This document shows, piece by piece, positions 892 to 56,842 of a stretch of DNA of 64,000 nucleotides; within the stretch, counting starts at the first letter, position 1; each line of letters begins with the position of its first letter. Under the pieces are notes generated by a model, which saw nothing but the letters and a program-made list of their open reading frames with translations, did no database searches and had not been told where the DNA came from. Source of the stretch: Urechis unicinctus (Eukaryota > Annelida > Polychaeta > Xenopneusta > Urechidae); assembly GCA_034190875.2 (NCBI GenBank), contig CM067356.1:60520208-60584207 (forward strand). Reading direction: 5' to 3'. The translations under genes were made by a program, and so were the position numbers.

Positions 892-3800
892 TATTTGCAA
901 CTGACACCCAACTTTGCTCCAAAATTATTTTCAAAGGTCTCTACTTTACTACTATCAGTTCGTCTATTACCGCGTTTACAAGTATGTTTAGGTGGCGCGA
1001 CATGTTGAAGGTTGCGATACATGGCTGTCTAATCTCATCAACTTGACTTCCGGGCGGATTATTGGTGTTGTAGTCACGATGTACAGACGAAGCTGGTATT
1101 TGTTTATAATTCTTGCCTTGTGTGATTATATTACTGCGTGAGTCAACGGTATACAGAAAATGTGATAATGTTAATTTGTAACGCGCAAAATCACCAAGTA
1201 GTGGTAATTTTCATTGCAAATAAGTATATTCTGATCGGGAATTTATTTAAATGATAATCTGATTGCACGTTTTCAAGCTATATTGTATGCATACCATCTC
1301 ATGATGTTTATATGCTAGTTTGTATATCAATGACACCATATACAGCATTCAACAAACATGTTTGCTACATAGTCATTAACAGATGGTTGGCTGTATGTGG
1401 TTAAAAACACAGCAGAGGATGTTTGTTATTCACTGAGCAATACAGCGCACACATGGTGGTAAATTTTAAGCCCTAGAAAACCAAGAAAGCACATCTCCGT
1501 ATTGAGAATCGTATTATGGTCGTCGCCGCTTAGTAAAAATTTCTAAATAATAGATTATGGTCATAATTGTAGCTGATAAATCAATCAGTTAAATCTCTCA
1601 CAAAACATTAGAGCCGGATAGAGTTCCCAAGTACTGCGTTCTTGTCGACAGCCATTTTGTATATTCACAAAACCGCACAAAAAGATAACTCATTCTGCGA
1701 TTTATGTGTTTTTAATTATTTCGTCTCTCTAGAACACGGGTTTCATCCAAATTTTTCTGCAATAATTTCTTTTTTTTTAGTTTCATGAGAAAGCAGAGTC
1801 TCTGAAGATGTCTTCAGGCTGCTACGTGTAATTGTAATTGTCGACAACCCTTTTTATCGGCCCAGGGAAATATTTTCACAAATGGCATTGATAATGGGCT
1901 TAGATGAGTTATGGATAATAAACGCAACTTTTACCTTTAATGTCAATACGTTGACAATCTCTTCAATATCTGCATTGCATTTAACCACACAGATCATAGT
2001 AACATTAGTTGTTCAGAAAACAGGAATCATGTCACATCACTTTTGAAGAGATTATGTCCAATGTATTATATATAGTTCGTTAATAAGCAAGGGTAAGTGC
2101 CCTCCACGTTCTACGTCATCTATTAAAAAACATTTTTAAGGGTCATGCAATGATATGTTTTAATGTTAATGTATCACCATTATCAAAGGCACTTGCTGAT
2201 ACTAAGTGTAACCACAGAGGCTGCAACTTTAAACGGTGAAGCCATTCTAGTTGCGGGAACTCCCAGACCGTTCTAGGTCGTCAACGAACACAGCCACAAT
2301 ATAACGTCACCTACCTCTGGCACAAGTTTGCTTGTCATACGAGAACCAGAAACACCATGTTGTTTGCAAATGTTACCATGGCCGTGAATACAAAGTAAAT
2401 AAAGACGCTAGCGATGGTTCATTAGTATAGACACTGACGTGCCTTGAATTGTAGCTGTGAAAGTGTTTGCTGGTAGCATATATAGTGCCAAGTTAGAGTA
2501 TCGGAGGATTAAAAGCACATGTTTCACGGCAATATTAACTAACATTTACCTTCTACAATGCTAAATGTAAAGGTATCTGGGATTTTTCGATTCATTACGA
2601 GAAGCATCAAATATTGCTTACATCTTTATGCTAAGGCTTAAATAGCTGTTTTACATTTAACTTGTTCATGTGCTGTTTATAACAAAGCTAAACCGGCAAC
2701 AATATATTATCGTGATATATTGTACTACATTATGTGCCCCAGTTAGTATGGCAATCACATTGATAACTATGATTTGATTTCGGTACCATATGTGTCTTAT
2801 GCTTATTATAGTATTATAATGTATGGCCGTTATAATACATTCCAAGGTCATGTTGGATTCATATGCCACAAAATAAGATTTCCCTTCCTTAATTTGGATA
2901 ATAAAACTGTATTTATCGACGCTAGGATGTTACACTAGAACCCTGTTGTATAGTTATGCGTTTATTAAACATCAAGATTCGTCCTCTTATAAGATGTCAT
3001 GCACAAATTACCCTTCGCCAATATCTTGTTCTTAGCAACAATGGTGATACTGCAAGGCATTGTCCAATGTTCAATTACCGATAATGAACTCCTGAATTTA
3101 TTAGACTGTTGTGTAGGTTTGGAGCAATAAGCGCCACGTGCCGTGTGGGATCACATATGCACTTAGGCATATCCCTATAATCAAGTTGTTCTTTATTTCC
3201 ATGATCCTCAAATTGCTCACTTATGTAGTTCGACATATAAGCGCGATACTATTTTACTTTGCAGCAGTGTGAATAGCTTTAATCTTGTTATTTTGTCTAT
3301 TGCAAAATATTTGGGTTAAATAATCGGACAATCGGAAATGCAGCATCATAATGCAAAATCAGGATATGCTTTCTTCATCAAGCCATGCATAGTCACGTAC
3401 GCGATTCTGCAATAATAGCATATACACTCATGTGCAATCATGCAACAATTCGTGCGTAATGGTTATTACAAGGTAGATCTGCGCATTGATGATATCGCTA
3501 TCATTGCGTCTATCCCTATTAATGACGAAGCCATAGCGCTATAATGGGCAAGGTTGTCAGCTTATGTGAGCAGCAAATGTTTATTCTGAATCCATCAAAG
3601 AGACGTATTAAAGTCTTAATTGCTCAGCTAATGGAACAGGCATTGTGACATCTAGGCTTATTGAAGTCTATGAAATACGGAATAAACGAAGATAGGACAA
3701 ATAACAGGTGACATCATATTAACGACCATTGTATGCTACTAAGTAGTAAAGTGTTGGCATGCGTTTGTATATGCACGTACCGGCCAGCAAAGCATTAAAG

Positions 3801-6190
3801 CTATTCAGCTATAGTTGAGGTAGCGTCCTCGCAAATGAATGTAAATGCAAATCGGCTAGCCATAAAAACTGCTAAAACAGGTTTCCAACAAAAGGCTGTG
3901 TTTAACAGAGTGGCAGAACCACAACCGAAGCATGTGCTGTTTTCACTTGCGGCCCTTGTGGTGGAACTAAGCGCTCAGTCAACGATGTGCAATTGCGTCG
4001 TCAACACGGGTAACAGAGCCGCCTACCTGTATATCACTCAATTGTTAGGGGTTGTTAGTACGCGTTCTGCTGTCTGATCCCTTGGGTATGGTGGTGGTAG
4101 TATATGACCGGCTGGTATTTTGCGAAGTTACTTGAAGCCGATTATCTATGGGCGAGAGGCTATGTATCACGTCGTCGAGAAACTTCTGCCTGCTTTTAAT
4201 GTCGACGTTCGGCTCTCTTATGCAAATAGAGCAAGTTTCCCCTGGAATGCGAGGCAAGTCACATGAGTCGATTGCCAACAAGAGCATCTTATCTGCAGCT
4301 TCCAGCAGTGTTGTTCCGTCATTTTGTCACTCATGATTGCCTCCCCTTCAGACTTGGCTTGCGAGACACGTCGTCGAGGATTTGCGGAAGAATATAGCCG
4401 ATGACGACTTTTCAAGAATGTATTTATCCATCTGCAGAGGATAGGTTAATTTGTTTACGCCCCATAATGTAATAAATACATTTATCGATGGTAAACAATC
4501 GGATATTTAATTGAATATGTAATTACAAACGGCTATGGACAATATGAAAAAAATAACGCAAATGGTCCTAAACTATACATATCTAATAACACCCCTTCCT
4601 CGACCATAAGTGGCCATATTGCATTGCAGCATCTTTATACTTGTACAGTATTTTGTCTGATTGCTAAACCAGAAAATAGATTGGAGATCCTGGTATTCAA
4701 ACACATCTGTAATTACTATGAATATATACTGCAAAGGCTACAGTTTTGCACCGATCCTCGTGAACAACGATTTCGTTTGTATCAAAATTAATCCATCAAC
4801 ACCAATAGTTAACCAATCTAATATGCTTCCTGAAAATATAAATGCGATGAGCTTGGCATGCTCAGTTGGCTGTAACTGAGTTACAAATGACTAGTAACGT
4901 AATATGTGCTTTACATACAACTAAATTTTGACAACATTCTAGCGGGTACCGAGCTCATAAAACACTCATTATTGTGTATATTCATTGCGCATTTTTGCTT
5001 CAAAGCGTGTGAGTGACATCATTTGGAAATAAACAAACCACAGGTTAATATGTCTTTTGTGTGGGTAAACACCTTTCACCTGTCTGATCCTGCCCGCTTT
5101 AACTGTCGGCATCAGAATTGTCCGCGTAAAGAAACCGCTCAGTGTTTATGCAAATCAGGTGATCTCGCATTATTTGTGGTTATAAGTAATCACATTTTAT
5201 GCAAATGCATGTTTATTGTTTGGTTGGGTTTTGAACAACGGCCGTATAATACCCCAGGCTGCTGATAAACATCATGGGCGACATCGCATACTTCAAATCA
5301 TATTTAATGCAAAGTAATATGCGATCAATTAATAGCCAAATACTCTGTTAGCATCCATCTGGAGATATTGTATTTATCATCTAGGTTCACCTGAGCCTGC
5401 TACATTGCTTTGCAGGTGGTGTGTGCATGATTGCATTATGCACATCACGCACGACACGCGCATCTCAGTAATGCAGCTTGAAAAATGGTATGGAATAGAA
5501 TGTCACACGTAACACTTTTATCTTCTGCATCAGACCAATTGTTTGCATTTACAAGTCCATTATGGGGATTACGAAAACTGAACGGAATGAAGCAGAATTT
5601 ATTGACATAATTCTTCGAACACAATTATTGTTCATTTGCAAAACCCATTCAACACCGTCGACGCCAGGCAGTTATTGGCCGCTGCGTCTATGTGGCGTCA
5701 AATTACGCGAAGGCAGAATGGTGGGACAAAGGCTGTGGGATGTACATTCGGAATAACACGGAATACGCACGCCGCTGCAATCACTCACGTACTTTCGTAC
5801 CATTCTGCTTTGGTCGAGCTGTAATCAAAATTTGGATACGTGACCAAATTCATAACTGCCCTCTAAGGGAAAATTGTACTTGCACTTGTACACAGAAAGC
5901 AGGTAACACACTCGCCCATAAGCAATTGATGTAAGTTTTATAATCTGTTTGTAAGATTTATGCTGAATCCTTTACAAATCAACTGCACCAACTTGATATG
6001 ATAAGTTGACATTAGAGCTATATATTTCAATAGCTGCAGCTTCAAACGGATGAAATGTTTCTCTAAGAAAGCTTTGTGATAAACTTGCCCCTAGGGCCCC
6101 ATCGTCTCAAACAAGGTTCACTGCATAGCTACATTTCAAACAATAAGATGTGTCAGGGGCATTCCAACAGATGCGGTTAAATTCTATATA
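892..6190. other. Intergenic DNA containing one copy of a duplicated block
   Basis: No gene recognised. The frames at 3835-4077, 4661-4879, 5023-5265 and 5562-5934 show no domain and overlap on several frames. The stretch from about 3420 to 5000 is a diverged direct copy of about 7230-9020. Around 1571-1640 the sequence resembles 11822-11880 and 15946-16000, so this region belongs to the wider duplicated landscape. Confidence 0.55.
3420..5000 (+). repeat. Direct-duplicated non-coding block, copy 1
   Basis: Shared landmarks in the same order as in 7230-9020 include AAATGCAAATCGG near 3843 and 7667, the TATCTATGGGCGAGA segment near 4142 matching TATCTGTGGGCGAGA near 7896, a GCAGCATCTTTATACTTG segment near 4626 matching one near 8724, and CAAACACATCT near 4699 and 8802. 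Spacing between landmarks has drifted by tens to hundreds of bases and identity looks moderate. This suggests an old duplication about 3.8-4.1 kb apart, not an active element. No coding frame is conserved between the two copies. Confidence 0.6.
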
Positions 6191-30172: not shown

Positions 30173-30322
30173 GAACCCCAGGTCAGTGACATACTGGGGT
30201 GGTGATGAGAACCCCAGGTCAGTGTCACGATGGGTTGGGGATAAGAACCCCAGGTCAGTGTCACGACGGGCTGGTAATAAAGAGAATCCCAGGTCTGTGT
30301 CTTGCTGGGCTGGTGATGAGGA
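30173..30322. repeat. 36-bp tandem repeat, four units
   Basis: Four units begin with GAACCCCAGGTCAGTG or a close variant at about 30173, 30209, 30245 and 30284 (periods 36, 36, 39). The inverted arm has the corresponding repeat at about 47413-47548. The 60-residue minus-strand frame over it is a translation of the repeat. Confidence 0.85.
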
Positions 30323-30649
30323 GGTGATATGAATTACAGATAAATACAAAGCAGATTAACTGTACAACAATGTGACACTATACACAGGTGCATACATCAT
30401 AACTGCAGGACCATCAATCAGGACCAGGTGGAGCTTAACAGTCATACTGGGTAAACAGAACCTCTGATAAAAAATTCTACTTAAACAGACTGATGAAGCC
30501 ATACAAACAAAAAATACAGATATTACTCATTGTTTTGTTCATTTTTGTCATTCTGATGGTTTTAATAGCAATGACATTTAGACATAAAATGTCTTTTTAA
30601 GCCCCAGTGATAGATATATCTCCACAGGATATGATGCAAAAGAGAAGCC

Positions 30650-31437
30650 AAAACATTTGAGAATCAACAACATTAGTGAAGCCAAAACATTGATGAAGCC
30701 ACAACATTGATGAAGCCACAACATTGATGAAGCCACATCATTGACAAAGCCACAACACTGGTGAAGCCACACAATTAGTGAAACCACGGTATTGTTGAAG
30801 CCACAATATTGGTGAAGCCACAACATTGATGAAGCCACAACATTTATGAAGCCACAACATTGACAAAGCCACAACACTGGTGAAGCCACAAAATTGGTAG
30901 AGCCACAGTATTGGTGAAGACACAATATTGGTGAAGCCACAATATTGGTTAAGCCACAATATTGATGAAGTCACAATATTGTTGAAGCCACAACACTGGT
31001 GAAGCCACAACATTGGTGAAGCCAAAATATTGATGAAGCCACAATATTGATGAAGCCACAATATTGATGAAGTCAAAATATTGATGAAGTCACAATATTG
31101 GTGAAGCCACAACACTGGTAAAGCCAAAATATTGCTATAGCAACAATATTGAAGAAGCCAAAGTATTGGTGAAGTCACAACATTGTTGAAGCCAGAGTAT
31201 TGGTGAAGCCAGAGTATTGGTGAATCAACAATATTGATGACGCCACAATATTGGTGATGCCACAGTATTGGTGAAGCCACAATATTGGTGAAACCACAAC
31301 AATGGTGAATCCACAGTTTTAGTGAAGCCACAATATTGGTGAAGCCACAATATTGGTGAAGCAACGATATTGGTGAAGCCACAGTATTGGTGAAGCCACG
31401 ATATTGGTGAAGCCACAACACTGGTGAAGCTACAATA
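30650..31437. repeat. 17-bp minisatellite, left arm, about 46 units
   Basis: The unit is GAAGCCACAATATTGGT with common variants (AACATTGAT, ACACTGGT, CAGTATTGGT). Because 17 is not a multiple of three, 51 bp (three units) encode 17 residues, and all three minus-strand frames read the same Trp/Cys-rich cycle (WLHQYCGFTNIVASPIL). This produces minus-strand frames of up to 227 codons. On the plus strand the unit quickly meets TGA. Arm-wide conservation is that of the DNA repeat, and I see no start context, splice signal or codon bias, so I do not call a gene. Confidence 0.95.
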
Positions 31438-34080
31438 TGATGATGAATTTATCATTAACATGCATCCAGAAGAAAAATTTCGCGGTGGTTTAGCACATGG
31501 ACCTTAATATTGCAAATGCAAATCATTATGTAGAATAGACAAGAGATCATGTGGCTTCATCTACATTACTGTCAGTAATGCAGATAAAGTCGCATGACCT
31601 CCTCACTATTCTTATCTTTAACTATACATTTATCTCATATCACCAAATGTCATGAAATGATAAGACTAAAGAATATTTCTTTTCACTAAGCAAGAGCCTA
31701 GTGGCCCTAAAGCAAAACACTGCTCCCTTTGATATGAGGAAGTGTCTTGCAGAGATAAATGAGCTCAATTGTGATGTTTGGACAGCTGATACTGTTGCCC
31801 ATCTTGAACAAATAAATTTCCTAAATAGGGCAAATTAACCAACACAGAGGATATGAATCTCCAATATGATTCAATTGAGATACTGGGTCCATAATATTAA
31901 ACCCAGAACAGGAGGTAAAGCAGTTAATTACTACCAGATCATGAGTGCTGCTAAGCAAAATGTCATCGCAAACACCTAGTCAATCTCACTGCCTTACAAT
32001 AAAGACAGAAGGCCGATGGCTATTGAACTCTGCTGCTTTTGACATTAACAAGTTATGACAGCATTTAATCATAGCGTGTATAGTATAACATTATATTCAA
32101 TGACATACCAGAGCTGAACAATAATCCCCGAACCCACTTGTCTAGCAACAATAGTCCATCGCCAAGTAGTTATGCAAATAGTTTATTTATGCTAATAATT
32201 TAATTTTTTAAGAAATGATTCACCCAAACGCCCATAAGCTAATAATAACTTAGCTACATTTTTCCTGGAACAAGCAATTTTAATTTGCTTTTATTTAGCA
32301 AGACAAAGGTCAAAAGCCATAAAGCTATGAGTTAAAAGTTGCAAGATTTGGTCAATGTGAAGTTGCTAGCTTGCATTATAAGAAAACGTGCCATCTAGAA
32401 TTATTCCCCATTGAGTAAATCACTCAGGGAACAAATGGGTCATGCAGTGCTGATATTTACTTTGTAAGTGATCATCAATATAAGAGTGGTTCATGTTTAA
32501 TTTGAAACAGGTATTCCCTATTTGGTTTGCATAGCTAATGAGATTAAGGTCACAAAGGACTGATATTTTGTTTGTAAGTGACAATCAATATAAGAGTGAC
32601 TTGCATTATTAAAAAAATATGACAACAAAAGTTTAGAAGCAGACAGATGGACAGGGCAAAACTGTGTTGGGGAGCATAACTATTAATGGTTACTGCCTAA
32701 TGGTCCCATAAATTTTACCTTATAAGTGGCATGCAACAGGTCCGGGATGGGCAACCAATGAAAGTGACCTTCTAAGTCATGCGTAACCAGCCACATTGTT
32801 ACATCTTGGGAACTGCACTGTCCTAAAAAGGCCTCATGTGTGATTTTGGGTTTCAGATATGCTTAATACCCCTATCAACACAAGACCAGATGCACAGCTT
32901 TTAAGACTAACTGACAGATGACCATGGCATTTATAGCTTATACATGATAGATTCAAATGATGTGATTGTACTATTGAACAATTGCTTGGATTACAAACAT
33001 TGAACATTTGACAATTTTATTACCAATATTGATGTGGCAGATACCCTGACAAAAGAGGCCCTTGACTTCAAAAACCTACTTGGGGTCTGATTATTTGGCT
33101 AGCCGCTGTTGAACTTGGCTGTCAACTCAAACCAGCACAGTTGTTTTGGATAGCTACTATTGAGATCTAAAGGATCACTTTCCTGACTAATTGATGGCAA
33201 AAGTGTGACTCTGTCCATGACTGAACTATCATATAACACATAATCAAACTTATAGGAATTAATAAAGAACTCATGTTTTAGTGTATTACAATAATACATA
33301 ATATTAGCAGATCATGCTATTTCCATGTCCAATAAAAGTACTTTAAAAGGTAGGTTAAGGGTAACATTACTGATGCAAGTATATAATTCAAGGATGTCGA
33401 AATGCAATATATCAATCTTCAACCTTTGAAAACAAAATTCACATTTGAAAGAGTAACCCCACACCCTAAGACACTGCCACCAGAGTTGTTATATAGTGTA
33501 CTATGACACTAGCCATCCTAGTGGCTAGTGTGATAGTCCACCATACAACATTGTGAGTTACAGGGCATAAAGACGAGTGGGATCGATGATCCTGGAATCA
33601 GGATCCCCTACCTTACTCAACAACAGAATTTGAGCGTTTGGGTTAGATACCGGCGCGCATGTCCGCTGTCAAGATCAGGCAATGTTTGCATATGACAGAT
33701 GGCGCAAAAGCCGTTTGCTAAAATGACCAATAGTCAATACGGTTAAATGAACGTTAGGAAATACATTTGAAAAAAAATCAATGGTAATCGGTAGATCTGT
33801 CCAACCAAGCTGCAGGCATCTAGTAACATTAACGTGGTATCTGGGTATTGTTGGCCGTTGGAATAGTGTTAGTGATCGGTAAGTGTGAGTGTGAACGGTA
33901 GAGCCCACGTGCGGAACAGCCCGGTGAAGCTCGCAAACCACTGTAAACTACGAGTATTTCATAATTTGTGGTACATGAAATTTCATCCCGCAACAATAAC
34001 GTTCATTGTCACATGAATTATATTCAATGTATAAACGTTGGAATCATACTGACCAAATAAGAATCAAATGGAAACAGAGC
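31438..34080. other. Non-coding interior of the left arm
   Basis: Collinear with the right arm (about 43250-46230). It contains small internal repeats, for example two copies of TTTGTAAGTGAYMATCAATATAAG near 32460 and 32572. Frames such as 33099-33299 and 33675-33941 are not maintained in the other arm. I see no gene. Confidence 0.6.
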
Positions 34081-46231: not shown

Positions 46232-47075
46232 TAAATTAACAACTTCATCAATATTGTGGCTTCACTAGTGTTGTGGCTTCACCAATATTGTGGCTTCACC
46301 AATACTGTGGTTTCACTAGTGTTGTGGCTTCACCAATATTTTGGCTTCATCAATATTGTGGCTTCACTAGTGTTGTGGCTTCATCAATATTGTGGCTTCA
46401 CCAATACTGTGGTTTCACCAATATTGTGGCTGCACCAATATTTTGGCTTCACCAAAGTTGTGGCTTCACCAGTGTTGTGGCTTCATCAATGTTGTGGCTT
46501 CATCAATATTTTGGCTTCACCAATGTTGTGGCTTCACCAGTGTTGTGGCTTTACCAATATTGTGGCTTCACCAATACTGTTGCTTCATCAATAATGTGGA
46601 TTCACTTATGTTGTCGCTTCACCAGTGTTGTGTTTTCACAAATGTTTTGACTTCATCAATATTGTGGCTTCACCAATACTGTGGCTTCACCAATATTGAG
46701 GCTTCATCACAATTTTGGCTTCAACATTGGTGTGGATTCACCAGCGTTGTGGCTTCACCAATATTGTGGCTTAACCAATACTGTGGCTTCACCAATATTG
46801 AGGCTTCACCAATATTTTGGCTTCACCAGTGTTGTGGCTTCACCAATATTGTGGCTTTATCAATATTTTGGCTTCACTAATGTTGTGGCTTCATCAATAT
46901 TGTGGCTTAATCAATATTGTGACTTCATCAATATTGTGGCTTCACCAATACTGTGTCTTCACCAATTATGTGGCTTCACCAGTGTTGGGGCTTTGTCAAT
47001 GTTGTGGCTTCATCAATTTTGTGGCTTCATCAATGTTTTGGCTTCACTAATGTTGTGGCTTCACAAATGTTATAG
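46232..47075. repeat. 17-bp minisatellite, right arm, about 49 units
   Basis: Same 17-bp unit as the left arm, here read as ACCAATATTGTGGCTTC on the plus strand. The five plus-strand frames of 77-162 codons over this array all show the same 17-residue cycle (WLHQYCGFTNIVASPIL) and are translations of the satellite. Confidence 0.95.
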
Positions 47076-47412
47076 CTTCTCTTTTGTATCATATCCTGTT
47101 GAGATATATCAATCAATGGGGCTTTAAAAGACATGTTATGTCTAAATGTCATTGCTGTTAAAACCATCAGAATGGCAAAAATGACCAAAACAATGAGTAT
47201 TATCTGTATTTGTTGTGTGTGAGTATGGCTTCATCAGTCTGTTTAAGTAGAAGTTTTTATCAGAGGTTCTGTTTACCCAGTATGACTGTTAAGCTCCACC
47301 TGGTCCTGATTGATGGTCCTGCAGTTATGATGCATGCACCTGTGTATAGTGTCACATTGTTGTACACTTAATCTGCTTTGTATTTATCTGCAATTCATAT
47401 CATCTCCTCATC

Positions 47413-47548
47413 ACCAGCCAAGCATGACACAGACCTAGGATTCTCTTTATTACCTACTCACTGACCTGTAGTTCTTATCACCAACCAATCGTGACACTGA
47501 CCTGGGGTTCTTATCACCAGCCCAGTATGTCACTGACCTGGGGTTCGC
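47413..47548. repeat. 36-bp tandem repeat, right arm
   Basis: Inverted counterpart of 30173-30322, with units centred on CACTGACCTGGGGTTC. Confidence 0.8.
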
Positions 47549-48720: not shown

Positions 48721-48724
48721 TTGA
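48721..48724. repeat. Left target-site copy, TTGA (from TTAA)
   Basis: This lies immediately outside the left end of the transposon. The right side reads TTAA (53043-53046). Joining the outside sequences gives GACCTTAACAAATCC, which matches 12 of 15 bases of the unoccupied left-arm copy (reverse complement of about 28885-28899). That indicates insertion at TTAA with later mutation of one copy. Confidence 0.7.
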
Positions 48725-48739
48725 AGTGCCTATGACACC
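48725..48739 (+). repeat. Left terminal inverted repeat of the Kolobok-like element
   Basis: AGTGCCTATGACACC, exact reverse complement of 53028-53042. Inward of it, AAATTGTCATGAT here and TAAAATATGAT at the other end still align loosely. Confidence 0.9.
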
Positions 48740-48954
48740 AAATTGTCATGATAATTTTTATTTAACCAAATGAAAGACATAGTTGCATTTACTCTGTTTT
48801 TGTGGTTCAATTTCCGAACAAGTCACCCGAACCTAATGTAAATGGAAATATAAAGTCGGCACCCACCGCCATTTTCCAAATTTGTGGCCCCAGCACCCCG
48901 TGACGTCACTTGACGGAGTCGTCACTGACAGGTCCGCAGTTTCCAACGTAAACA

Positions 48955-49989
48955 ATGGCGAATGTTTTGGAGAGCAATGTATTTGAGTTGGACCGTTTGA
49001 CTATGGAGTTTTGGGTTGAAGAGCAATCAAATCCAGAGGATGTAGCTGGTATTGTGCCGTACAGATTCGAACCATATCGGTCCAAAAACAGCGCCAGCGA
49101 GTCTGACAGTGACATGACTGATTCACGTGTTCCGAGAAGCGATAATCCGAACATGAACCGTCTTCAAAACATTGATTGGTGAGTCCCATTGGAATTGTAA
49201 TCACTGCACGAAATTATTTTTTCTTTTGATTTTATATTATTAATGAAGAATACCTTTACCATTTGATATCGTTTTCGTTTCTTGGTGTTATTCAATGTGG
49301 TTTGTAGTCGCCAACGAACATAGCGAAAAATCTTAGACTTAGTCTTAGACAGAGTTTGGCATGTATTTGATTAGCTTTTGAAATACTGGTTTCAAGTGCA
49401 AATGTGGAGGCTGCTTAACCATGCCAACTGTCAGGGAAAGTGTCTGCTGTGTGGAGCAGGAGAAAGTGATGGTTAAAATAGAAAATTTACCAGAAATTAA
49501 ATGTGTGATGCAGCATCCAAATTTTAATGCTATATGTCTCAATGAAGATGTATCGGAAACAGTGTACTACGCCTACAAGCAGGATCATGGTCCACACAAG
49601 GGAAACAAGTAAGTATTGACAGACAACAAACACCAAATTATAAATATATGTTGGGTCATTTTTACTCAAATGAATGACGTTTTCAATTCAGACTGAATTA
49701 TCAATACAGTTTATACCAGGATAACACTATTTTGTGACTCAATCATCAAATCAATGTATGGGCTAAAATATCATATTTATTCAGCGCTGTAAAGATGTTT
49801 AAGGGTTTGTGTATGGTTGTGTGTTACAGCTGGAAGCGTTACACTGGATATAGGCAGTTTATCTGGTGGTGCTACCATTATCTTGGCAAAACAAATCGCA
49901 TCCCTATACCATCCTGTGTGACTTCAATCATGCGAAAAACATTTCCAGAGGCGACAAACAATTATGTTGGATACGAAACTAGCACTTAG
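48955..49989 (+). CDS. P2X7 ballast-like domain protein, three exons, transposon cargo
   Basis: Exon 1 (48955-49178) starts MANVLESNVFEL and contains an acidic Ser/Asp stretch (SASESDSDMTDS) and NRLQNID; donor GTGAGT. Exon 2 (about 49397-49608) reads CKCGGCLTMPTVRESVCC, then a region with MQHPNFNAICLNEDV, and ends at donor GTAAGT. Exon 3 (49830-49989, after TGTGTTACAG) reads WKRYTGYRQFIWWCYHYLGK, IPIPSCVTSIMRKTFPE and NYVGYETST. The C-x-C-x2-C plus CC cluster and the YR-x3-W...PSC-x3-IR-x2-FP...Y-x-GF-like tail are hallmarks of the P2X7 C-terminal ballast, which in the receptor is cytosolic and binds zinc and guanine nucleotide. No P2X channel segment is present. At exon 2 the acceptor reads TTCAAG and gives the wrong phase by one base, so this copy may be inactive. 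The 3' end overlaps the transposase stop. Confidence 0.85.
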
Positions 49990-52736
49990 AGAAGCGAGAG
50001 CGGAACTGATCGACTGCTTGGTGCTTTTCTGGGATCTCTAAGGTGGAGTTGAGATTGGGTGGGATCTCCAGTGCTTCCATCTCCTCATCATTTATGTCAC
50101 TGGCCTTGCATATGCTGACTGTCGTTGCCAAATGATCTTCTATATAGCCTGTATTGAATATATGTATTAGTTGTTCATTTGAGATTACAGATTATAATTT
50201 TCACATAAAAGTGAAATTTAGAAACAATCCCTACCATAAGTTGGATCATTCAGCACTTTCCTCACTGTGTGACTTCCTCCCTTGTGTTTGGGGTAGTGGA
50301 GGCTGTATATGTCCTCACCCTGTGCTGTTATTCTTTGTTGTCGTCCAGCATTTTCATTGAAATGCATAGTTGCAATGATTTTTCTGAAATCATTTATGAA
50401 CCTTTCTATAAGTTTGAAATAGGATAAGTTTGTGCTTTTCATGTTTGATTTATTGGATGTTTGGTGATAAGTTGGATTCAGCAGTAAATTAACTTTATTC
50501 ATGACTAGAATGAATGATGTGAGGCAAATTACTCCTTGCACAATTCTTGTTGGGGATAATTTTTTTTTTCAATTCTATGGCACACCTCGTATCTAAGGAT
50601 GTAAATAGCAATTTAACCATTAGATTTTTTTTTGTGTGTTTCACGGAAATTTAAGGAACTTGTGGTCTTTTTAGTCTGAACTCTAAAATGATATATTGTA
50701 TCACCTGGCTTGATCCACCTTTTGCGTCTCTCACGACCAGTCAAAGGTCCATGAACACAGGACTGGAACAGACCACCAAACCCAGAATGAATATTTTGAA
50801 TGTGGTCAAGGATTAAGAGCCACTTGTCCAACACCAGCTGTCCATTTCCAGGGGGGCTTGACACTACACTCCAGTACAGGTGGTTCACAATGCTTGGTAT
50901 CCACGCTTGAATATCCGCCAGATCTTTACCTCTGGCCACTGCCTTCAGTTTCTTTTTGATGCATGAAATATGCAGAAGATCGGGTGAAGCAATATCATTG
51001 CACATTTCATCATCATTGTACAAAAATATAATTTGAAATATTTACCCTTAGCAACATGCCAAATGTCAATTTCATGAGTGATGCCTGGGTGCTCCTCTTA
51101 GATAAACTTAGCAATTTGCAGGTGGTGGTCCGTTATGTGCGTCTCAACATCTAAGTAGTTTTCATCCAGTTTCTGCAACCCTAGGGCGAGATCGGCCTTT
51201 TCCATGTGGTAGCTTCAACCACATTGATTACTCTACAGAAAAAATGTGATAACAGCCTAAGTACCTTGGTAAGGTTGATAGCCTTTGGTTGAGCCACCTA
51301 CACATTTTATACCATTTGTAAATAAAAGATATAGTACCAACATATGAAAGGATGTACCTGTACAAGTTCTACATCTATTAGAGCCATTGCTTCCATCTCC
51401 ATCAAAGTGTATGTCCCATACTTGGCACTGTGTCCTGGAGTGTCTGCGCGCCCGTCACCCCCTAGAACAAGTCCCCGGTTTTCTGCCTGAAGGACTGCAA
51501 ACAACCATTGTTAACTCTCCTGCCACACTTGTCGGACTAATTGGATTAAAATATGTTTTTGGTGGCGGAAGAATGTTCGCAGAGAATAGCAAGCGATACC
51601 CATGTGCTTTAGAGGATTCCCGCTGAGAGCAGCAAGTTTCCTGCATACCATGTTTACCGACATAGGGCTGGCTATTCCAGAAAACAGATTTAGTACAGCT
51701 GGTGCATCTCAAGGTGACAGCTACTAATGTGCCAACCTCCCGCTTGGATGCAGCTAACCCAGTGGCACCGCAAAATCTGCACACACAAATAGCAAATAGA
51801 GTCTGCAGTGAAGACCAAAAAACTATATACTTTCTTTCCTCAATAATGTCCAAAAGAATCTGTTTCATCATTTTCAATCAAAGTCTTCTCGTCATTGATG
51901 TCCACATCATCTTGTATGTCTGAGGGGATGTAGTCAGGATCTGTTTCCTGGTCCATTCTCTCCCCTTGTACATAGCACTTATTCTCCATCTCATCCCACC
52001 ATGGGAAGGATGTTTCATGGGTCTGAGATGATGTTGTGACTGTGGTGCTTACATGAGTCTGCACAGCTTTTAACAACACGTTGCTAATGTTAACCATATA
52101 TCAGAAAAAGGACACAGAGCATCATAAATTATTAAGCATAATTTATATGTGATAGAGCACTGAAGAGAAATTCCACTAAAATCACCTGCTTCCCTGGATT
52201 TTGATTTAAATAGGATGCCCACTGTCCTGCAAGCGCGAGGTACCAGAGCAGGACCACAGTCATTTTCTTTTTCCTGGAGAGATGAGTCCAACAACAATGA
52301 CTCCACAGCCTGATAATCAGAACAAAGTCCTTGTTTATAGAATAAAATTATGGAAAAAGTAAACATCTGATAGATTTTGGCAATATGTCAGCTCACCTTA
52401 TGGTGCTCCCTTTTCTCCACTGCCTTAGACTTTCTGACTGGTGGCGAATCCGTGCAACCTCTCTTGAATATGGTAGGAACAGCAGTTGGGAGAATATTTC
52501 GGGAAGATTTGTACCCAAATCCGAGAGATTATTTCACTGCAAGTGCCTGGTCAAAACATTCCGGTCCAAAATGCTCGCTACACAAACACGAGTGTGCTGT
52601 CGGACCCGGCCAATCTGCCATTGTACTTGCGCGATATCAATTGCTTGCGCAACTTCTCCTCCCGAGGAAAACTGTGTGATCGAACGCTTTCCGAAGAAAA
52701 GTTCGAACAATTCGCGGCCACGCAGCTCTTTGGCAT
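49979..52736 (-). pseudogene. Kolobok-like THAP/DDE transposase, seven exons, decayed
   Basis: Exons inferred from frame and splice sites: 52397-52736 (THAP finger), 52186-52309 (linker), 51358-52083 (acidic linker with DPDYIPSD, Cys-rich segment CRFCGATG/CTSCTK, then GLVLGGDGRADTPGHSAKYG), 51046-51232 (SYHMEKADLAL, THITDHH, DIWHVAK), about 50705-50968 (KKLKAVARGKDL, IVNHLYW, HIQNIHSGFG), 50235-50504 (NPTYHQTS, MHFNENAGRQQ), 49979-50148 (YIEDHLATTVS, DEEMEALEIPPNL). The GGDGRAD Asp is likely one catalytic acid and the DIWHVAK Asp another. Where I would expect the catalytic Glu after QTS, the frame has NKSNMKS. Disablements: TAG and TAA in the THAP exon, frameshifts and a deletion in exon 3, and two stops in exon 4 (before SYHMEK and in KFI-stop-EEH). 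Confidence 0.82.
52397..52736 (-). pseudogene. THAP zinc-finger exon of the transposase
   Basis: Starts MPKSCVAANCSN, giving the first C-x4-C pair, followed by HSFPREEKLRKQL. After a one-base frame change it reads CLCSEHFGPECF, supplying the C-x2-H pair, and later AVPTIFKRG, the AVPTIF box typical of the end of THAP domains. THAP domains bind DNA and in transposases recognise the element ends. A frameshift near the CSEHF motif and a stop after LAVK break this copy. The exon ends at a donor AAG/GTGAGC. Confidence 0.82.
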
Positions 52737-53027
52737 GACTGATCCAGACTAAACAAGATATAAATTCATGGTTGACACGTGGGTTTTATGGTAGGCAAAG
52801 AAACTCCGGCTCTGACAGCGCCAGCGCATCTATCGAAGCTGACTTGGGCTGCAGAAACTGGGACCCCCTTTATGCGTCATTTCCGATTGACCTCGGCTCA
52901 CGCACGAAATGCTGCTTCGCTCCAAAGAACGTTTCATATCTCTTTTATTATTCATCGGAGGCCAAAAACTCCAACACCATTTGATCCGCATCGATTTGAT
53001 TAGTTTATGCTCAAAAATCATATTTTA

Positions 53028-53042
53028 GGTGTCATAGGCACT
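53028..53042 (-). repeat. Right terminal inverted repeat of the Kolobok-like element
   Basis: GGTGTCATAGGCACT, exact reverse complement of the left end, followed directly by the target copy TTAA at 53043-53046. Confidence 0.9.
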
Positions 53043-55132: not shown

Positions 55133-55725
55133 GTATACACAACCGTCTTTCTTCTAACCTCAGGTGGTTGTGTGGGTGTTATAATGAATTATACGTTATT
55201 TCATTCTCTTTTTGTCGATTAATGACTCGTTGTTGATCGTCGCAGAGCATCTTTATTTAGAACAAGTCACATTATTAACTAGGTGTGGCCCTTGCCGGAT
55301 AATTGGCAGCAATACAAACGCATATATCATTTATGACATGACGTTAACCGTTTAAAACGTGCGAGTTACCGGTGTATTATCAGGTATCCTGTATATACAA
55401 TGAAACATGGGTTGACAAATTATGCCTTCAGCGGTAACGCAGTTGGGGGGGGGGAGAATCTACCATGCAGGATATTGCGATTCCCTCGAAAGTCAATCAG
55501 AGGTTTGTTGGTTGGCGGAGAAGTCCTCGGCTGCGCCATAAGAAGCAGCTTCCAGGCAGCGCGAGCCACATTCCTGTCACCGCAGCCAGTGTGAGTACCA
55601 ATTCATACAGCGGGTTACACTGTTAATAAGCCTGCTGCAATACACTGAAGTATCAGTATCTCTGGATTGACAGAAATGTGAATTTCGTTATGAAAGCATT
55701 TCAGATGAACAGGTAAAAGTTGGAT
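55131..55725. other. 5' flank of the receptor gene with a possible untranslated exon
   Basis: Part of this stretch (about 55430-55590) is less AT-rich, has a run of ten G at about 55445, and ends at a strong donor-like CCAGT/GTGAGT near 55588. A plausible acceptor TTTCAG lies at 55699-55704, 22 bases before the receptor ATG. I infer a 5' untranslated exon; the 64-codon frame at 55400-55594 shows no domain. Confidence 0.35.
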
Positions 55726-56842
55726 ATGCAACATCGGAAAATACCTAAACTGTCGTGTGACTACGCTGGATTGAATAACGAAACAATTGCCGTCCACAGA
55801 GTTACCAATTACAGCATATCAGCTCCGCTAAATAAGACTGGATATGACCAGGCAGTGTATACTGGAGTTATCAATGAAATATTAATTCCTTCGGTATTCA
55901 TCTGTGGCATCATAGGAAATGCCATCAATCTTTATGTGCTAAGTCAGAGGCACGTCAAGCGGAAAATGGAGCAAATGGAGCGATCCGCTACACTAGGCCT
56001 GGTGAGTCTGGCACTCTCCGATCTCTTGTTCTGTATTGTGGGTTTCCCCATGATATTTCACAGCACATATGGACCAGGCAATGGCAGCAAGGCCCTTGAT
56101 GCATTCCGGTTTCATTATGAGATATACATGCGGCCACTTCTCAATATATTCCTCTTCTCCAGCACCTGGCTCATCACAGTGATATCCAGTGAGAGGTTTG
56201 TAGGCGTATGCTTTCCATACCGCGCTTGCACCATGATCAAAGTGCGACGGACAATCATGACTCACTTGCTGGTTTTCGTTGTATCAATCATCATTAATTT
56301 GCCGTTGTTTTTCGAATTCCGCATAGTGCAAGAAACGTGCTACTCTACCTGTTTCTGTTACATGATGCAACCATCATGGTTCGCTTTCCAGCCTGCACTA
56401 GGTAATATTCATCGCATCATATGGCTCACTGTAGGCACATTCATTCCCCTATTAATCTTATTATTCTGTAATGCCAGCATCTTGAAAACTATCTACCAGC
56501 TTCGTCATTCGTCCGGTCCCTCGAACCTCCTCAAACCAGCACCTCGCGATGACTAGGCTCACTTGGATCCTTCTGGCTATTGTGGTCCTCTTTATCGCTC
56601 TGGTTTGTCCTTCGATGATTCTCGAAATGGTCCAACAAAATGGTTTATACGACAACATAGCACATCTCACTCTCGCAGTTGCTATAACAAACCTAATGCA
56701 AGCTGTCAAATTTTCATCCAACTTTTTACTTATTGCGGTCTTCATGCTAGGTTTAGAAAAATACTTGCCTGTAAGATTCCGACAAGGTTTAGAAATGGCC
56801 GAAAGGATTGCGAGTTGGGAGTTAATATGCAAAATTTGTTAG
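55726..56842 (+). pseudogene. Rhodopsin-class GPCR, neuropeptide-receptor-like, frame broken before TM6
   Basis: A plasma-membrane seven-helix receptor. I place the start at ATG 55726 (MQHRKIPK). N-glycosylation sites are N18, N28 and N36, with another at N119. TM1 has GN (N65), TM2 has LALSD (D99), TM3 ends in E156-R157-F158 in place of DRY, TM4 is IMTHLLVFVVSIIIN, and TM5 is FIPLLILLF. The first frame stops at 56554-56556 in intracellular loop 3. TM6 (WILLAIVVLFIALVCPSM) and TM7 (VKFSSNFLLIAVF, the NPxxY position) follow in the next frame, to a stop at 56840. The NSSxNF-like TM7 is typical of FMRFamide-type peptide receptors; ligand unknown. I see no cysteine at the usual top of TM3, though extracellular loop 2 has three. 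The shift could be a real mutation or a sequencing error; no credible intron spans it. Confidence 0.8.

Follow-up and report, generated by a model that had tools for sequence, protein, structure and literature searches.

The closest described relatives of the element considered here are the Kolobok transposons of the Kol0 lineage (type Kolobok-1_XT), in which TTAA target sites, ends of the form 5'-RR...YY-3' and a DDD/E transposase are accompanied by a second protein, KolX, reported as clearly similar to residues 476-595 of human P2X7, a region that constitutes the cytoplasmic ballast fold with its seven conserved cysteines (Kojima & Bao, Mob DNA 2022; PMC9587614). The same report traces the P2X7 gene to a fusion between a P2X4-like gene and KolX and regards Nanor as a probable domesticated form of KolX. 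The ballast domain was found across animals by Rump et al. (2020; PMC7016195), who also report that ballast genes share an 'ancestral synteny' with two markers; the stem 'transpos' is absent from the main text of that paper. A search of the literature collection for Kolobok with KolX, or for the P2X7 ballast domain with transposition, found only PMC9587614. Positions 48725-53042 of a 64-kb stretch of Urechis unicinctus DNA (contig CM067356.1; the whole stretch is called the window below) are occupied by a transposon bounded by perfect 15-bp terminal inverted repeats, which is identified with high confidence as an old, inactive cut-and-paste DNA transposon of the Kolobok superfamily, of the Kol0 kind, encoding a THAP-DDE transposase and a KolX protein on opposite strands; this confidence covers the identity of the element and the pairing of its genes. 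Since the pairing and its meaning for P2X7 are already in print, the window family is a further member rather than a new arrangement, and the original prediction, made from the window sequence, erred in supposing that the arrangement had no known description, while its suggestion of a transposon origin for the P2X7 tail agrees with the published conclusion (PMC9587614).

Inside the repeats, a three-exon ballast gene on the forward strand is faced by a multi-exon THAP/DDE transposase gene on the reverse strand, running toward the ballast gene (Table 1), so that the two opposite-strand genes predicted within a single pair of perfect repeats are both confirmed. The terminal repeat (AGTGCCTATGACACC) occurs exactly twice in the window, once on each strand, and no further occurrence is found there even if two mismatches are allowed, the chance expectation for a 15-bp terminus with up to two mismatches in 64 kb being 0.08 matches. 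The element ends are AG...CT in the window copy and its relatives, in keeping with the 5'-RR...YY-3' ends of Kolobok. The window copy is flanked by TTGA on the left and TTAA on the right, implying a TTAA target-site duplication altered at one base, and TTAA stands on both sides of all 14 relatives in which both ends were located; the description as a TTAA transposon holds for the family. The likeness to Kol0 is judged from its description in PMC9587614 rather than from published sequences, and the opposite-strand orientation of the genes and the three exons of the ballast gene may be points of difference.

When spliced, the ballast gene reads as a protein of 198 residues that matches the Pfam family PF20478 (P2RX7_C) with an E-value of 1.2e-13 over profile positions 51-191 of 192; the unspliced pieces match weakly (E 0.53 for exon 2 and 3.2e-05 for exon 3), and the N-terminal exon has no Pfam match. 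Comparison with solved P2X7 chains gives E-values of 0.0008-0.0026 for the protein alone and 8e-14 to 6e-12 for a profile of three ballast sequences. The predicted free-standing homologue of the P2X7 ballast domain is thus borne out by the spliced match and by the profile, the motifs CKCGGC...VCC and PSC...FPE that had been singled out are both present, and the correspondence to KolX as a second protein of ballast fold is one of sequence (PF20478 and the solved chains). The zinc pattern is complete, its seven cysteines falling into the three clusters given in PMC7016195, and these clusters are shared with the P2X7 ballast and the ZCD proteins, including Nanor, treated in that paper; the window protein differs in having no channel domain and in being encoded inside a transposon. 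By manual count over the alignment to P2X7, the arginines at 546 and 578 are kept but H547 and K583 are not, which is the invertebrate pattern of PMC7016195.

The features used to recognize a Kolobok transposase are taken from the description of the Xenopus XKol elements (PMC6004289), with which the present family shares a THAP domain with C2CH and AVPTIF motifs, a DDE triad, an H2CH finger, TTAA target sites and ends beginning with AG. The THAP domain is complete in L037, a relative fetched from the same genome (E 1.2e-16), and scores below the Pfam cut-off in the window copy (E 0.0029); the THAP/DDE transposase that had been predicted is therefore genuine as to its THAP domain and broken in the copy from which it was predicted. 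The H2CH pattern is found in the window copy and in 15 of 20 fetched copies. A DDE triad, with the C/DxxH signature lying between its second D and its E, is recognizable from motifs in L037 and in further copies; the second D and the E are about 142 residues apart, zinc finger included, as counted over exon pieces whose joints are uncertain. Full-length XKol elements are longer (6.8-13.9 kb), and a second protein or KolX goes unmentioned in the portions of PMC6004289 drawn upon here. KolobokP (PMC9587614) belongs to the same superfamily and likewise carries a second gene on the opposite strand, but the window element lacks the long terminal direct repeats of KolobokP (direct repeats of 40 nt or longer are absent from it, and the sole direct-repeat family at L037 spans bases 1-336 of the locus, nearly all flank), and its second protein is a ballast protein, not a His-Me finger nuclease.

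The window copy itself is dead, a pseudogene in both genes. Exon 2 of the ballast gene has no AG acceptor, and the transposase gene loses its THAP frame ahead of CSEHF, has more stops further on, and is missing about 260 bp, a segment that contains the third catalytic residue (E) in relatives. Identity to L037 is 0.931-0.951 in the exons and 0.915 and 0.973 in the introns; this nearly equal divergence fits a history in which most of the differences accumulated after loss of function. Over the whole ballast reading, the ratio of nonsynonymous to synonymous divergence (dN/dS) from L037 is 0.045/0.109, which indicates that part of the divergence took place under constraint and speaks against a wholly neutral history.

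With the element as query, a DNA search of the 1.19-Gb assembly from which the window comes yielded at least 80 matching fragments, spread over many contigs (33 of 1404 candidates were scored). The 20 copies then fetched were taken from the strongest whole-element matches, a selection that favours complete copies, and both ends were located in the 14 already mentioned, 13 of which have both repeats perfect, with one mismatch in L049. Twelve of these 14 are 98.4% to nearly 100% alike. For L045 and L049 the agreement with the other copies is 95.8-97.1%, and for the window copy it is 94.0-94.9% with every one of the 14. The family has thus moved rather recently, the window copy being older. All 20 fetched copies retain two or more ballast exons. 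The ballast frame is open with GT-AG junctions in nine (L034, L035, L037, L038, L039, L045, L047, L048 and L051), six of them full length with all seven cysteines; in the other 11 the ballast gene is disrupted by stops or frameshifts, L050 having no exon 1 and L044 no end of exon 3. Five of the 20 (L034, L035, L037, L038 and L039) combine an open ballast frame with every transposase motif searched, a count of motifs rather than of whole transposase frames.

One alternative is that the ballast exons are part of a host gene extending past the repeats, into or beside which a transposon inserted. The three-exon gene lies wholly inside the repeats from ATG to stop and reappears together with the element between different flanks on many contigs, and all 15 matches to the P2X channel domain fall on contig C15, where no listed ballast match comes closer to them than 4.3 Mb. 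No point in support of a host gene was found, and with the copies refuting it the explanation has next to no probability. A P2X-ballast fusion was not seen among the matches listed in this genome. Scans of viral contigs with the ballast protein gave no match, and with a 17-base element end two matches, which are probably due to chance given the size of the collection; phage records searched with ballast exon 2 gave no match. As separate observations on the distribution of the two genes, eight transposase matches lie about 3 kb apart on contig C7 (about 33663650-33684587), suggesting that a Kolobok derivative is arrayed in tandem there, and three equal-scoring ballast exons lie about 7.5-7.7 kb apart on contig C879, which also suggests a tandem array.

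Linkage of the two genes is assessed more fairly from the transposase than from the whole-element sample, because the latter favours complete copies. The best 150 of 977 transposase candidates, merged by element, give 145 places, of which 72 are at 85% identity or more, and the ballast matches are those of an exon 3 search and a Pfam ballast search (best 150 of 2849 and best 150 of 2592 candidates). Among the matches listed, 48 of the 72 transposase places have a ballast match within 6 kb, always on the opposite strand and 1.2-2.1 kb from the transposase. As for the remaining 24, five carry ballast sequence according to the genome DNA search or the fetched copies, and ballast is present in 7 of 10 stretches that were fetched. 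In total, ballast stands beside 60 of the 72 places; three have none in the stretch inspected and nine are outside the sample. Counted from the ballast side, 50 of the 150 exon 3 matches have a transposase neighbour among the matches listed.

The pairing extends to more distant loci. L054, the second-best Pfam ballast match listed, belongs to a more distantly related family of this genome, in which an intronless ballast frame (2013-2399, forward strand) is accompanied by a Kolobok-like transposase on the opposite strand (4071-4640, reverse strand), each about 31% identical to its counterpart in the window family. At L053, the weakest exon 3 match listed, a ballast exon of 73% identity is faced, across the two strands, by THAP and further fragments of a transposase. 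The opposite-strand layout is thus kept at both of the more distant loci fetched at length; a TTAA-flanked pair of inverted ends was not found at L053 or L054, where the fetched stretches may not span both ends.

Constraint on the ballast gene was estimated from exon 3 of L037 and 20 chosen stop-free matches (21 sequences, 210 pairs). In 153 of the 210 pairs dS exceeds 0.1; the median dN/dS is 0.36, and the ratio is below 1 in 152 of the 153 and below 0.5 in 114, the pairs being non-independent and the stop-free choice biasing the result toward constraint. The last ballast exon evolves under purifying constraint.

Several observations count against the view that the ballast protein belongs to the element and assists it. 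Three of the 10 fetched stretches (L056, L058 and L061) have no ballast in the 1.7-1.8 kb inspected at the expected place, and one of them adjoins a transposase that is 96% identical and has a long open frame; copies without the ballast gene, which would have refuted the original prediction, are missing among the 20 fetched elements, and these three places may be such copies. Among the matches listed, a ballast neighbour accompanies 2 of 19 transposase places at 60-85% identity and 1 of 54 below 60%, and a transposase neighbour accompanies 1 of the 150 Pfam ballast matches; such low pairing counts are lower bounds, because the matches are the best of a list and the transposase query fits one family, and some lineages may have no ballast-transposase pairing. 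Three of the nine open ballast copies (L034, L045 and L048) have in-frame deletions or lost cysteines. Membership of Kol0 is putative, judged from the KolX match and the described features, and KolX is a candidate accessory of transposition.

These same three stretches, the few listed pairs at lower transposase identity and the broken ballast gene of the window copy are what would be expected if a host ballast gene had been captured by chance and carried as a passenger with no role in the element. A passenger would be expected to decay, whereas exon 3 is under purifying constraint (with the leaning due to the stop-free selection) and the two genes are still found together at L054, where both proteins are only about 31% identical to those of the window family; capture of a passenger is accordingly quite improbable. 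Taken together, the linkage, the pairing at distant loci and the exon constraint make the ballast protein look like the element's own second protein, not casual cargo; the proposal that the ballast domain is a transposon-encoded protein is thereby supported. The copies in this one genome show the ballast domain as a constrained protein of a transposon and so lend support to the published origin of the P2X7 tail.

By analogy with the superfamily, the transposase would bind the element ends through its THAP domain, and its DDE site would cut and insert at TTAA. KolX would act as a zinc-stabilised, probably nucleotide-binding accessory of transposition; the way it is paired with the transposase and held under constraint speaks for an accessory of the element, and a role in aiding transposition is somewhat the likelier one. 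The same constraint and linkage are compatible with a KolX that is owned by the element but serves as a regulator or a host-interaction factor, such as a transposition repressor or a suppressor of host silencing, and the P2X7 ballast, in the description of PMC9859053, is globular, carries sites for nucleotide and zinc and is of unknown function, which would suit such a factor as well. The N-terminal exon has no Pfam match, and this alternative is considered possible but doubtful. A much more speculative proposal, to which little credence is given, is that KolX might be a detached guanine-nucleotide module supplying the transposase in trans: GTP, held by an insertion domain within the RNase H fold, is required by P element transposase for positioning the transposon ends (PMC7776569), GTP/GDP is bound by the P2X7 ballast (PMC9859053), and THAP is common to both kinds of element. 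The GTP use of the P element is called unique among known transposases in the review PMC7776569, which argues against the proposal, and neither GTP nor GDP is mentioned in the main text of PMC9587614. If the proposal were true, the guanine-nucleotide site of P2X7 would be a relic of transposition. Whatever KolX does for the element, the P2X7 tail would have come from a gene of KolX type, as already published, and the function of KolX is open to experiment because natural copies exist that have both an open ballast frame and all of the searched transposase motifs (the five of 20 given above).

Table 1. Features of the Kolobok-type element in the window, in window coordinates.
Feature	Position	Strand	Basis
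Left target-site copy, TTGA (TTAA in relatives)	48721..48724		flank reading, compared with relatives
Left terminal inverted repeat AGTGCCTATGACACC	48725..48739	+	exact-match scan of window
Ballast (KolX-like) exon 1, ATG and GT donor	48955..49178	+	mapped from relative L037
Ballast exon 2; CxCxxC, CC and KC cysteines; acceptor AA instead of AG here	49396..49608	+	mapped from L037
Ballast exon 3; PSC cysteine, arginines aligning with P2X7 R546 and R578, stop codon	49830..49989	+	profile match, alignment, mapping from L037
Open frame resembling 3' end of transposase gene	49979..50191	-	counterpart in L037
Transposase C-terminal region	50218..50568	-	counterpart in L037
Junction of ~260-bp deletion; relatives hold catalytic E (YIEAFHSLL) there	50533..50534		comparison with relatives
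H2CH zinc-finger region (NHLYW...H...CVH)	50751..50885	-	motif search
DxxH signature (DIWH)	51056..51067	-	motif search
Second catalytic D, putative (ITDHH)	51122..51136	-	assigned by motif
First catalytic D, putative (GDGRADTPG)	51433..51459	-	assigned by motif
AVPTIF box closing THAP domain	52466..52483	-	motif search
THAP domain, N-terminal part; frame lost before CSEHF	52581..52748	-	Pfam and translation; intact in L037
Right terminal inverted repeat	53028..53042	-	exact-match scan of window
Right target-site copy, TTAA	53043..53046		flank reading

Elsewhere in the window, an open frame at 55717-56556 on the forward strand matches the rhodopsin-type seven-transmembrane family (7tm_1, E 9e-19) and may belong to a host receptor gene. 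A 936-nt inverted pair (30503-31438 and 46285-47220, 84% identity) consists largely of a 17-bp minisatellite, and a 36-bp repeat lies outside each arm (30173-30320 and 47407-47546); the pair looks like a structure of about 17 kb with inverted ends that adjoins the Kolobok copy.

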